A stretch of DNA of 56,279 nucleotides from Campylobacterales bacterium (GTDB taxonomy: Bacteria > Campylobacterota > Campylobacteria > Campylobacterales > Sulfurimonadaceae): NCBI GenBank assembly GCA_026390075.1, contig JAPLGP010000028.1, positions 1 through 56,279 on the forward strand, in the 5' to 3' direction. Position 1 is the first letter of the stretch. Each line of letters opens with the position of its first letter. Positions 51,985-56,279 of the stretch are shown in pieces. The translations under genes were made by a program, and so were the position numbers. The notes beneath the pieces are model-generated. The model was not told where the DNA came from, did not search any database, and saw only the letters and a list, made by a program, of their open reading frames with translations.

Positions 51985-52773
51985 TTATCTATACTCAACT
52001 CTATTTCTTCCACTTTTTTTTGCATCATAAAGTGCGTTGTCACATCTGTCTATGAGAGAGTGTAGCGAGTCGCTGATGCTTACGGAGGTTACACCAAGGC
52101 TTATTGAAATATCTATCTTTGTTCCTTGAAATAAAAAGTTAAAGTTTTTACAGCTCTCTCTTAATCTATTTGCGAGTCGCATCGCCCCATTTACTTTCGT
52201 TTGAGAGAGTACGATTATAAACTCTTCTCCGCCAAATCTGCCACATATATCACTCTCTCTTAAGTGCGTTTTTACGATAGAAGCAAGTTGTTTTAATACA
52301 TAGTCACCTGCTAAATGCCCATAAGTGTCATTTACTTTTTTGAAAAAATCTATATCAAACATGATAATTGAAAATGGGTTTGTTTGATACCTTAAAAAAG
52401 TGTATAAAAGATTTTTCATCATTATCTGAGTTTCAGTTTTGGTGTAGCACTCTGTCAAACCGTCAATAGCTGAAGTTGCTTCTGCTTTTTCTAGCATTTC
52501 ATCCCAGTATTTGCACTCTTGAATGAGATAGTATATATGGTTGTTTTTAAATTTTCTGTTTATCCAGTAGGAGATATTGTTGATAACGATTTTATCAAAA
52601 ATCGGAATAGAATTTTCATCATAATATTTTTTTAAAAAATCATCAAACTGCTCCTGAGTAGTAATTTGAACGCCATCAAATGGATGTTTTGAATAGCTAT
52701 ACACGATGTTACCATCTGCATTGTCGATGACGGTAACACTTGTGTAAAGTGTTTTTAAAATATCATATGTCAA
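51985..52773 (-). CDS. Diguanylate cyclase of the partner-switch operon
   Basis: The 262-residue protein has an N-terminal PAS-like region (about 1-90, with VIDNADGNIVY and YWINRKFKNNHIYYLI) and a GGDEF domain with GGEEF (GRFGGEEFIIVL) and an RxxD site (RESD). It is cytosolic and probably active. It is the last of four genes joined by 4-bp ATGA overlaps, and likely the output of the RsbR/RsbT-like proteins. Confidence 0.92.
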   Translation of the reverse strand: MTYDILKTLYTSVTVIDNADGNIVYSYSKHPFDGVQITTQEQFDDFLKKYYDENSIPIFDKIVINNISYWINRKFKNNHIYYLIQECKYWDEMLEKAEATSAIDGLTECYTKTETQIMMKNLLYTFLRYQTNPFSIIMFDIDFFKKVNDTYGHLAGDYVLKQLASIVKTHLRESDICGRFGGEEFIIVLSQTKVNGAMRLANRLRESCKNFNFLFQGTKIDISISLGVTSVSISDSLHSLIDRCDNALYDAKKSGRNRVEYR

Positions 52774-53567
52774 CTATCTTGTCCTAAAATAATTTTCATT
52801 GCTTTTTTTGTTGTTACATAAGTCTTTACTTCACCGAGGTTGATATTGAGATGTGTTAAACTTTTTGCAATATTTGGAGTGATTCCTGTGATGTAAGGCG
52901 TCACACCCATGAAGTGAATTGTGTTATTGAGTTTAATAATTTGATTTGCAACTTCAGAGTTCATATCATAAATAGCACTAATGTCAACTATGGCATGTGC
53001 ATACTCTTTCTTTTCTAGATGTGTGAGAACCTTATCTATGATTTGAAGTATTCTGAATGAATCAAGTGTTCCAACAATGGAAACCATCAATACTCCATCC
53101 CAAATTTCACTAATCGGAGCTTCTCTCTCTGCGAGTTCTTGTGTTGAAGAGAGCGTGACAGATTTATGCTGTTGGAGTAACTCTACAACCAAAGTCGATG
53201 TTAAAGACTCAAAAAAAGCTGTTATTGGCTTTACATTTTCATAAGTGAACATCCCTTTTTGTTCGATAACTTTAAGAAGTGGAAACTTTAAAAAACATGT
53301 ATAGACTGAATTATGAAAGTGAAAAAAATAATCCTCGCCAATGATATCTACAACCTTTTTCAAAAAGTGTTTCAATGCACCTGCTTCATCACTTAATGGG
53401 TCTAAGTTTGACTCTATGCACTCTTCAAAAAAGCCTAGAAAATCATCATAACGACGATACTCATCATCTTTAAACTCATCCTCAAAATACTCCAACCAAT
53501 GCTGTGTCAGCTCTTGTGAACTGTTTTGTACTATGTCTAATAGTGCCGTTTTAAACTTTTCATTCAT
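52770..53567 (-). CDS. RsbR-like STAS domain protein
   Basis: The 265-residue protein has an N-terminal RsbR-type helical domain (about 1-135) and a C-terminal STAS domain (about 150-262). The region EIWDGVLMVSIVGTLDS and MNSEVANQIIKL align with RsbR; the Ser in MNSEVAN sits where RsbRA has phospho-Thr171, and a second Ser/Thr (KSLTHL) near the Thr205 position. It would be phosphorylated by the RsbT-like partner encoded next. It overlaps both neighbours by 4 bp. Confidence 0.88.
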   Translation of the reverse strand: MNEKFKTALLDIVQNSSQELTQHWLEYFEDEFKDDEYRRYDDFLGFFEECIESNLDPLSDEAGALKHFLKKVVDIIGEDYFFHFHNSVYTCFLKFPLLKVIEQKGMFTYENVKPITAFFESLTSTLVVELLQQHKSVTLSSTQELAEREAPISEIWDGVLMVSIVGTLDSFRILQIIDKVLTHLEKKEYAHAIVDISAIYDMNSEVANQIIKLNNTIHFMGVTPYITGITPNIAKSLTHLNINLGEVKTYVTTKKAMKIILGQDS

Positions 53568-54547
53568 GATAACTCCTTTTGTGTTGTGATTACTACGATT
53601 GTTTTGTCATCATAAGTAACAGATGCAAAATGCATAGCACTTAAAGCTATGAGTGCACTGCTACTTTTCTTTGGCATGTGTAAAAGTAATTTATTAAATT
53701 TTCCTACATCAATGCCATCGGTTGCTGTAATAAATTTTTGGTTGTGTGATAACTCAAAGAAAAATTTATCGCTCGAGGAGTAATGTTCACCAAGTATTCC
53801 GTCTTTTTGCGAGGCATAGTTATAGTGATTGCCATTTTGTATCCAAAAAGAGATATTACCTATGCCACAAACTTGAACACTACTTTTAGAAATTTCAAAA
53901 ATACTAAGAGCTAGACCTCTCATCTCTTTCTCTTTGAGCTTTTTGTCAAGATTTAAAAAGAATTCATCCACAAGCAAACATGAAAAAGGGTGATTGTAAA
54001 AAAGTGATTTAGCGAGTTCTGCACTTTTGTTTGCTTTTTTGCCATGACCGCTTCCATCACAGAGGAGTAAAAATTTCCCTTTTTTTACAAACATATCCCC
54101 AGAAATTTCTTCTGTGGCATGTGGAATTTGTAAGGAGATAATATCTGGATTGAGATTTATTGGTTTGAGTAAAACAACTGTGCCATGAATTTCTCTATGT
54201 GCTAGGGAACATATCTCTATTTCGTAATTTGCATTGTTATTCATTTGATATAAGCCAAGACCTAAAGAGTTGTCCATACCTGTCGTTCCATTTTGCATAG
54301 ACCAGTTTATATTTTCTATGCCATTTCCATAATCTAAGGCACAAAGCAGTATTTCATCTTTGTAGTCAAGCACCCAGATTTCACCTTTGTCTGCGTGTTT
54401 TATGAGATTAGTAGAGAGTTCCATCAGTGAAAAGATGAGAAAATTTTTATCTAATTTTACTCTGTCTTTGAGTATGTTGCTTAAGGTTGTTTTAGCATAA
54501 ATGATATCTGAGTTATTCTGTATTTTAAATTTTTCAATGAGTGTCAT
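53564..54547 (-). CDS. RsbT-like kinase fused to an RsbX/SpoIIE-type phosphatase
   Basis: Residues about 1-130 form a GHKL ATPase/kinase with the N-box ELSTNLIKHA and the G-box GTTGMDNSLGLGL, close to RsbT. Residues about 165-325 form a PP2C-like phosphatase with DGSGHG and ATDGI metal-binding motifs, close to RsbX. In Bacillus these are separate proteins with opposing actions on RsbR/RsbS; here one chain carries both. It overlaps both neighbours by 4 bp. Confidence 0.88.
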   Translation of the reverse strand: MTLIEKFKIQNNSDIIYAKTTLSNILKDRVKLDKNFLIFSLMELSTNLIKHADKGEIWVLDYKDEILLCALDYGNGIENINWSMQNGTTGMDNSLGLGLYQMNNNANYEIEICSLAHREIHGTVVLLKPINLNPDIISLQIPHATEEISGDMFVKKGKFLLLCDGSGHGKKANKSAELAKSLFYNHPFSCLLVDEFFLNLDKKLKEKEMRGLALSIFEISKSSVQVCGIGNISFWIQNGNHYNYASQKDGILGEHYSSSDKFFFELSHNQKFITATDGIDVGKFNKLLLHMPKKSSSALIALSAMHFASVTYDDKTIVVITTQKELS

Positions 54548-55611
54548 AGTAAATACCCAACATCTTGTTCTATATTTCTTGATGCGATAGCATTTTTGAT
54601 AATAAAATGAAAATCAAACTCGACGCTCATTGTTTTTAAAATATCTTCTTTTACTTTTTCTAATTTATAACTTAAAAATTCGCTTCTTTGCCCAATGTAA
54701 AGCAGTGCAAATTTGTCGCCACTTAAACGAAATAAAAACAAATCTTTCTCCACAGGTTCTTTTATAGAGGTTATTGCACTTAAATTTTGAATAAGTATGG
54801 ATGCAACATCTTTGAGAAGAATATCGCCTTTTGCAAGTCCATATACTCTATTGTAAGTTTTAAAATTTTTAATGTTGCACCCGATTAATGAAATTTTATA
54901 TCCATAATCATGGCTTTTTCTCAAAAGTCCTAAAATCGCATCTCTATTTAAAAGTTTTGTTAAAGAGTCTGTAAAAAAGAAGCTATTTCTTTGGGTTTCT
55001 AGTTCTTTAAATTGAAGTTTTTTAGATGCATCCTCTTCAATTATCCCTATTTTGTGTATCAACTCTATAAAAGTAGTATAAAGATGTGGGTCAAATTTAT
55101 TTTGTTTTTGCATGTCATGCATCATGTTGATTGACTTTGTAAAGTTAATAGATCCTCGATAAATACGACCAGTTGTGAGTGCATCAAAAACATCTACGAT
55201 AGATAAAATTCTGGCATATAAAGGAATTTCTTCGCCTTTGAGACCATCAGGATAGCCACTTCCGTCATAGTTTTCATGGTGATGTCTTACTGCGGTGTAT
55301 AAATAAGAGTAATTTTCAATTTTTTGGACAATCTGACCGCTGATTTGACTATGAAGTTTAATGAGAACAAATTCTTGATTTTCCAACTGCCCAGGTTTTA
55401 ACAATACGCTATCAGGAATACCAATTTTACCTATATCATGGAGTAATCCAGCAATATAGACATCTTCACACTCTTCTTCAGACAAACCAGACGCACATGC
55501 CAACTCTTTCGCATAATAGGCAACATGCTCAGAATGTCCTTGTGTATAGGCATCTCTCATTTCAGTTGAGTAAATGAGAGGCATAATTTCACTTATATTT
55601 TTTATTGGCAT
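54544..55611 (-). CDS. HD-GYP phosphodiesterase with degenerate GGDEF domain
   Basis: The 355-residue protein has an N-terminal HD-GYP domain (about 15-170) with HSEHVAYYA, LLHDIGKIGIPD and HHENYDGSGYP, giving the HD and GYP signatures of c-di-GMP hydrolases. A GGDEF domain follows (about 215-340) with FRLSGDKFALLYI, a degenerate site that probably binds but does not make c-di-GMP. It is the first gene of the four-gene partner-switch operon. Confidence 0.92.
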   Translation of the reverse strand: MPIKNISEIMPLIYSTEMRDAYTQGHSEHVAYYAKELACASGLSEEECEDVYIAGLLHDIGKIGIPDSVLLKPGQLENQEFVLIKLHSQISGQIVQKIENYSYLYTAVRHHHENYDGSGYPDGLKGEEIPLYARILSIVDVFDALTTGRIYRGSINFTKSINMMHDMQKQNKFDPHLYTTFIELIHKIGIIEEDASKKLQFKELETQRNSFFFTDSLTKLLNRDAILGLLRKSHDYGYKISLIGCNIKNFKTYNRVYGLAKGDILLKDVASILIQNLSAITSIKEPVEKDLFLFRLSGDKFALLYIGQRSEFLSYKLEKVKEDILKTMSVEFDFHFIIKNAIASRNIEQDVGYLL

Positions 55612-55715: not shown

Positions 55716-56279
55716 TTAGCGAATTTCTATACGATTTCTACCATTTTTCTTTGCCAAATATAATTTCTGATCTACTATATTTATGTAGTCATCCAAGAAA
55801 GTTGGTTGATAATAATCATTCGTGTTTATCTCCATCATACCCATACTTACAGTGGTATTTATTATAAAATCTTTATACGCCAATACTTTATTGGCAAAGC
55901 TGATACGGATTTTTTCTAAAACACTAAAAGCTTTTTCTTTGTTAATTGCAGGAAGCATAATGATAAACTCTTCCCCGCCATAACGGATGATAATGTCTGA
56001 GTTTCTTAAGTGCTCTTTTATAGTGTCAACAAAGAGTTTGAGCATATAATCTCCAGCGATATGTCCATAAGTATCATTGATATTTTTAAAAAAATCCAAA
56101 TCGCACATCGCTAAAACAAAAGGGTTATTTGTTGCTTGTGCTAACTCATACTGGCTCTCAAAGATAGATTTTAAGCTGTGACGATTTAAAGCCCCAGTTA
56201 GTGCGTCTTTTGTGACTCTTTTGTTGATAAGTATGTTGTCTATGAGTGCCAATTCTGTGCCAATACTTAACGAAATTAG
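55716..56279 (-). CDS. Diguanylate cyclase, C-terminal part (runs off the window)
   Basis: The frame is open without a start to the window edge at 56279. The visible part (about 188 residues) is a complete GGDEF domain, with DLDFFKNINDTYGH, GGEEF in IRYGGEEFIIML and an RxxD site (RNSD), so it should be active. An in-frame TTG at 56252 is unlikely to be the true start because coding continues upstream. About 100 bp separates it from the partner-switch operon. Confidence 0.93.
   Translation of the reverse strand, partial: LISLSIGTELALIDNILINKRVTKDALTGALNRHSLKSIFESQYELAQATNNPFVLAMCDLDFFKNINDTYGHIAGDYMLKLFVDTIKEHLRNSDIIIRYGGEEFIIMLPAINKEKAFSVLEKIRISFANKVLAYKDFIINTTVSMGMMEINTNDYYQPTFLDDYINIVDQKLYLAKKNGRNRIEIR

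Follow-up and report, generated by a model that had tools for sequence, protein, structure and literature searches.

A conserved four-gene operon of Campylobacterales places stressosome-derived RsbR- and RsbT/RsbX-like proteins beside c-di-GMP enzymes

What does a stressosome-type partner switch regulate when it is encoded between two enzymes of cyclic dimeric guanosine monophosphate (c-di-GMP) metabolism? The question is raised by a locus on contig JAPLGP010000028.1 of a Sulfurimonas-like Campylobacterales bacterium (assembly GCA_026390075.1), from which a stretch of 56,279 nt, referred to here as the window, was analyzed. Four open reading frames (ORFs) are located on the minus strand at 51985-55611 and encode, from 5′ to 3′, an HD-GYP protein, a fusion of an RsbT-like kinase to an RsbX-like phosphatase, an RsbR-like protein with a STAS domain, and a GGEEF diguanylate cyclase, and each neighboring pair shares exactly 4 bp (ATGA, ATGA and TTGA). 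A first-pass annotation made from the sequence had proposed these genes, their overlaps and their identities; the former were confirmed, and the latter were supported by profiles, folds and residues. The operon is real, conserved and coherent, and it is a new arrangement of a known type of circuit. Based on the sequences and on analogous systems, it is reasonably likely that the fusion phosphorylates and dephosphorylates Ser204 of the RsbR-like sensor, and that the adjacent c-di-GMP enzymes are controlled by the phosphorylation state of its STAS domain, probably through direct contact.

The module was found at 23 distinct loci, mainly of Campylobacterota and including two of Gammaproteobacteria, to which the following counts refer. 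A STAS scan of GTDB genomes gave 20 loci (Sulfurimonas, Sulfuricurvum, other Campylobacterales, Nautiliaceae, Nitratiruptor and one Thiotrichaceae), and G186 and the gammaproteobacterium G513 were added through whole-genome searches. The fusion was directly upstream of the STAS gene in 21 of the 22 assessable loci, the cyclase gene directly followed the STAS gene in 18 of 23, and the HD-GYP gene lay ahead in 17 of 21, being absent from four Nautiliaceae-type loci. All 23 loci had a cyclase gene, an HD-GYP gene or both in the module, and the flanking genes varied between lineages. All three junctions were exact 4-bp overlaps only in this genome and in G142, and the distances at other loci ranged from -19 to +18 bp.

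In the family sample, the fusion occurred in 7 of 151 genomes and adjoined the STAS and HD-GYP genes in every one. A phylum-wide profile search matched 98 of 397 genomes, and a full-length fusion was found in only 5 of the 397; the remaining matches were partial (E of at least 1e-7), covered the ATPase domain only, and were consistent with histidine kinases. The distances across the four gene trees were correlated (r 0.79–0.89, Mantel p ≤ 0.0002), and the module cyclases formed one clade, apart from the other GGDEF domains of the same loci. A chance neighborhood in a c-di-GMP-rich genome was ruled out by the synteny in 23 loci together with this single clade. The four-gene set, for which a search in other Campylobacterota had been suggested, was thus conserved and not scattered, and c-di-GMP, represented by a gene in the module at every locus, stands as the most likely output, as had been proposed. 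A Nautiliaceae-like copy of the module was also seen in L026 (JALWLM010000292.1), a short, low-coverage contig labelled Crocinitomicaceae, which was probably mis-binned.

The kinase–phosphatase identity of the fusion became apparent from its family. In a single-sequence domain search, HATPase_c and SpoIIE were matched by the fusion alone at no better than E∼0.05. When a profile of the fusion and 18 relatives was compared with the PDB, the C-terminal half matched RsbX (1.6e-9) and MtX of Moorella (1.2e-8). The N-terminal half was assigned to RsbT by hhalign at 98.6% probability, and SpoIIE was detected in 16 of 18 family members. The nucleotide-binding boxes (E43, N47, D72-x-G-x-G and G96-x-G) and the PP2C metal ligands (D151, D164, D277 and D313/D314) were invariant. 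In the AlphaFold model (pLDDT 90, pTM 0.90), the C-terminal part appeared nearest to RsbX, SpoIIE and MtX, with fold matches to 3w40 and 3zt9. The fusion consists of HATPase and PP2C domains only, and a receiver domain was not found. With these residues in place, kinase and phosphatase activities are predicted for the two halves.

The STAS domain of the RsbR-like protein was detected directly (E = 9e-8), and the profile of its family matched RsbR of Vibrio best (1.1e-25) and also matched Listeria RsbR over the full length (7.8e-22). The model of the protein (pLDDT 87) had its best Foldseek match in 7b0u, Listeria RsbR in the stressosome (TM 0.69); the comparison with 7b0u gave a Z of 16.4 and a root-mean-square deviation of 4.7 over 258 residues. 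Searched alone, the N-terminal domain had no Pfam, PDB-sequence or plasmid match, and its kinship to the RsbR sensor domain is suggested by the model. A heme-globin sensor as in Vibrio was ruled out, given that a conserved His is absent from this domain. Together with the RsbT- and RsbX-like halves of the fusion, this homology upholds the view that the partner switch derives from a stressosome. In the alignment, Ser204 falls on the VDT site of Listeria RsbR, and we take it to occupy the position of T171 of B. subtilis RsbR. Both phospho-sites had been described as conserved, which proved right for position 204 (S/T in 21 of 22 STAS sequences) and did not extend to position 236 (S in 18 of 22, A or N in the others).

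The flanking enzymes were also assigned by motif. In the HD-GYP protein, the HD_5 domain was strong and the GGDEF part was weak and degenerate (SGDKF); H58-D59 and G119-Y120-P121 were invariant, the metal-ligand His was kept in most relatives, and the GGDEF domain was conserved with its motif lost in all relatives. In the cyclase, GGEEF (181-185) and the I-site R172-x-x-D175 were invariant among 16 relatives. The cyclase is therefore predicted to be intact and the HD-GYP protein to be a phosphodiesterase. The cyclase starts with TTG at 52773, overlapping the STAS stop codon, and TTG is used in most relatives as well, which suggests low, coupled translation. Its N-terminus is short and poorly conserved; Tyr69 is invariant.

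Several components of the canonical stressosome were looked for and were missing. RsbS was found in no locus of the module, and no free RsbT accompanied it. Four other STAS domains were found in the genome, none of which was RsbS: one lies between a receiver protein and CheA, one belongs to an MlaE-type permease, one belongs to a SulP-type transporter, and the fourth (C25, an ORF of 548 residues) is probably a transporter too, as judged from its length alone. With C25 so judged, the reported absence of a separate RsbS was sustained. No RsbW-type ATPase exceeded the Pfam HATPase_c_2 cut-off in the genome; a distant RsbS or RsbW that would complete a canonical system was thus rejected, neither being found in the genome. 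A sigma or anti-sigma gene, likewise reported as lacking nearby, was not present in the module at the 23 loci. Given the lack of RsbS, a canonical RsbR:RsbS shell should not be taken for granted; since the kinase and phosphatase share one chain and RsbS is absent, one STAS protein and one enzyme should suffice in place of an RsbR:RsbS:RsbT shell. The STAS gene next to CheA stands in a row with a receiver protein and a CheA-like kinase (L044:535-3161), and this STAS-only protein is thereby tied to a chemotaxis-type system.

On these grounds, a self-contained partner switch that sets c-di-GMP locally can be outlined. In this scheme, the N-terminal helical domain of the RsbR-like protein would serve as the signal sensor. 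Ser204 in the STAS domain would be phosphorylated by the RsbT-like part of the fusion and dephosphorylated by the RsbX-like part, which would reset the switch. The phosphorylation state of the STAS domain would then set its binding to the GGEEF cyclase, to the HD-GYP protein or to both, activating or restraining them by contact, much as HsbA acts on HsbD and SiaC on SiaD, and a stress signal would probably be turned into a change of lifestyle.

A locus without the fusion bears on this outline. In G151 (Thiotrichaceae; L042:5816-7789), the HD-GYP gene is followed by the STAS gene after a 60-bp gap, and no fusion is present at the locus or in the whole G151 genome; as a positive control, the same search recovered the fusion in the G513 genome at 8.7e-85. 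This STAS protein, the only one without a fusion at its locus, carries His at position 204 and is the sole exception among the 22 sequences; of the 106 columns that are otherwise conserved throughout, it departs at 3 (F92H, K179Q and S204H). G513, a fusion-bearing relative of G151, has Thr at this position. The pattern supports position 204 as the predicted target of the fusion, and the HD-GYP gene kept beside the STAS gene suggests a direct STAS/HD-GYP link, a partnership that outlived the switch. More tentatively, an RsbR-type protein without RsbS and free RsbT may have become a one-substrate c-di-GMP switch, which would physically hold both the synthase and the hydrolase and would exchange the two through a single phosphate at an atypical N-S/T site, with the kinase lost in one lineage and the frozen sensor (S204H) still controlling the hydrolase.

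The main rival is a released-kinase route of the Moorella type, in which the STAS protein would sequester the fusion until stress led the fusion to phosphorylate it, and the freed fusion would bind and activate the cyclase through the N-terminal domain of the latter. In Moorella, the cyclase MtG is under the control of RsbT (as relayed in PMC12143880), the N-terminal half of the fusion is RsbT-like, and the cyclase, with Tyr69 in its small N-terminal domain, directly follows the STAS gene in 18 loci. However, no RsbU_N domain was found by Pfam in 16 cyclases at E ≤ 0.1, a diverged version being possible, and the N-terminus of the cyclase is short and poorly conserved. The fusion and STAS genes also persist where the cyclase is missing, and L042 retains STAS and HD-GYP without any fusion. 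Given the cyclases without RsbU_N, the kinase-less L042 and the finding that HsbD of Pseudomonas binds HsbA and not HsbR (PMC5085249; PMC6482189), to which SiaC/SiaD is comparable (PMC8457831), contact by the STAS protein is preferred, and release of the kinase appears doubtful.

Much less likely is an output through transcription, in which the fusion or the STAS protein would bind a sigma or anti-sigma factor encoded elsewhere (e.g., FlgM/FliA or RpoD), with the c-di-GMP enzymes upstream or parallel. HsbA does bind FlgM, and HsbR binds RpoS, in Pseudomonas (PMC6482189); here, the module has no sigma or anti-sigma gene, the genome has no RsbW-type ATPase above the cut-off, and the kinase half is RsbT-like, not RsbW-like. 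It is equally improbable that the c-di-GMP enzymes are inputs, with c-di-GMP or GTP on the degenerate GGDEF domain of the HD-GYP protein tuning the switch and the true output elsewhere: degenerate GGDEF domains are often used for nucleotide sensing, this one is conserved despite its lost catalysis, and the four Nautiliaceae-type loci lose HD-GYP while retaining the fusion, STAS and cyclase, but the cyclase is lost as well in five loci, and no other conserved output gene adjoins the module.

Several observations weigh against gating of the c-di-GMP enzymes by STAS phosphorylation. The cyclase is not adjacent in 5 of the 23 loci and HD-GYP is absent from four, so that neither is obligatory, and the correlation of the trees is also expected under plain vertical co-inheritance. 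The genome itself contains 64 GGDEF and 10 HD-GYP domain matches; adjacency in one such genome is weak evidence, and the case rests on conservation among loci that are related by descent. The S204H change is a single event, with p about 3/106, or a coincidence of ∼3%. Finally, all 22 STAS sequences have Asn203 (N203-S204) where the canonical site has Asp (D-S/T), and phosphorylation of S204 cannot simply be assumed for this reason; an invariant Asp201 is located two residues upstream of Asn203. Cys50 of the STAS protein is invariant and Cys91 nearly so, and these, together with Asn203, may possibly reflect redox sensing or altered phosphotransfer.

Partner switches over diguanylate cyclases are already known, namely the Moorella stressosome with MtG (as relayed in PMC12143880), HsbR/HsbA/HsbD, SiaABCD and BgrV. 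In Moorella thermoacetica, the stressosome (MtR/MtS/MtT/MtX) controls MtG (Quin 2012, via PMC12143880). As relayed there, that system shares RsbR-, RsbT- and RsbX-like parts and a GGDEF output with the module, and MtX is among the best PDB matches of the fusion, whereas the module lacks RsbS, has its kinase and phosphatase fused, has a cyclase without RsbU_N, and adds HD-GYP. The Gram-negative rsbRSTX modules (Vibrio and others; outputs GGDEF, HD and two-component proteins) are similarly minimal, without a sigma factor and with c-di-GMP enzymes among their outputs (PMC9237108), but their RsbR carries a heme globin and they encode RsbS, a free RsbT and an RsbX of a single domain, none of which is found here. 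A c-di-GMP output has been proposed for the stressosomes of Vibrio, Chromobacterium and Herbaspirillum (PMC9237108), and such an output is therefore not new, having been published before (Quin 2012, as relayed in PMC12143880; PMC9237108).

The fusion had been thought unusual, a view that was not supported. Using tblastn, HATPase-PP2C fusions were found in Variovorax, Sphingomonas, Paraburkholderia, Streptomyces, Deinococcus and others, and they are often annotated as "ATP-binding SpoIIE family protein phosphatase". Those of Variovorax and Sphingomonas (L085 and L086) have the same architecture and 24–26% identity over nearly the full length; in Variovorax paradoxus and Sphingomonas, in contrast to the present module, RsbR, RsbS and free RsbT lie beside the fusion, and the next genes encode histidine kinase or receiver proteins. 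HsbR of Pseudomonas aeruginosa is also a kinase–phosphatase in one chain (PMC6482189), and the Hsb system resembles the module in this, in its single STAS protein and in its cyclase output (PMC6482189, PMC5085249). It differs in that HsbR is REC-PP2C-HATPase, with another domain order and a receiver input, HsbA is STAS-only, HsbD is membrane-bound, and HD-GYP is lacking. The switch SiaABCD of P. aeruginosa (PMC8457831) likewise comprises four genes, and its phosphoprotein SiaC activates the cyclase SiaD by binding to it, but SiaA and SiaB are separate and SiaC is a DUF1987 protein.

Related clusters (L103-L121) were present in 14 of 369 sampled Gammaproteobacteria genomes; in these, the gene for a HATPase-PP2C fusion is followed by one for an RsbR-like STAS protein, and a GGDEF gene usually lies ahead of the pair. 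The three genes are adjacent and free RsbT is missing, as in the module, whereas the GGDEF gene comes first, the phosphosite is the canonical D-S, an extra short STAS is present and HD-GYP is not. This short STAS is located downstream in several clusters, and in most copies no Ser stands out as the phosphoacceptor (IDQ/IDR; one IDT). A second trio was observed in G115 and G137, of the same genus as the window (L048:3778-6883 and L047:2634-7002), with a receiver-GGDEF-EAL protein, a STAS-only protein (IDT site) and a HATPase-PP2C-like fusion; the fusion has altered PP2C motifs, and in G137 it is split by a transposase-bearing insertion. These clusters and the second trio indicate that coupling of a fusion and STAS protein to c-di-GMP enzymes is a recurrent solution. 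The present module stands out by the loss of RsbS and free RsbT, whose place is taken by c-di-GMP enzymes.

The open-access library searched, which does not cover subscription papers, yielded no account of either RsbR or a stressosome from Campylobacterota. If STAS-gated control of c-di-GMP is true, the module would represent a stressosome descendant of this phylum that is reduced to a minimum and lacks RsbS. With one sensor, one kinase–phosphatase and the outputs in a single operon, it would offer a simple system for signalling from a stressosome-type sensor to c-di-GMP, and L042 would be a natural kinase-less variant usable as a control.

Table 1. Positions in the window of the operon genes, the predicted functional sites and the neighboring cyclase gene.
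Feature	Position	Strand	Evidence
HD-GYP phosphodiesterase (predicted), 355 aa, C-terminal degenerate GGDEF (SGDKF)	54544..55611	-	PF13487 2.9e-40, PF00990 1.2e-12
RsbT-like ATPase/kinase fused to RsbX-like PP2C phosphatase (predicted activities), 327 aa	53564..54547	-	Profile, hhalign, fold, invariant catalytic residues
RsbR-like protein, 265 aa, N-terminal helical domain and STAS	52770..53567	-	Profile and Foldseek matches
Ser204 codon, predicted phosphoacceptor	52956..52958	-	Alignment; S/T in 21/22
Ser236 codon, second RsbR site (T205-like)	52860..52862	-	S in 18/22, A/N in the rest
Diguanylate cyclase (predicted), 262 aa, TTG start, short N-terminal domain, GGEEF and I-site RxxD	51985..52773	-	PF00990 8.5e-39
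GGEEF active-site motif of the cyclase	52219..52233	-	Sequence and alignment
CZB-domain diguanylate cyclase, C-terminal part	55716..56279 (on into L008 to 9037)	-	429-aa G142 orthologue

A fifth c-di-GMP gene, encoding the CZB-domain GGDEF cyclase, was found 104 bp upstream of the operon, where it is truncated by the window end and an assembly gap. The frameshift that this gene seemed to carry was only apparent, being due to the gap of 32 N at the window end and not to a mutation. The orthologue in G142 is intact and contains a CZB domain (7.3e-10) in addition to GGDEF, and the upstream gene is possibly an extra member of the operon.

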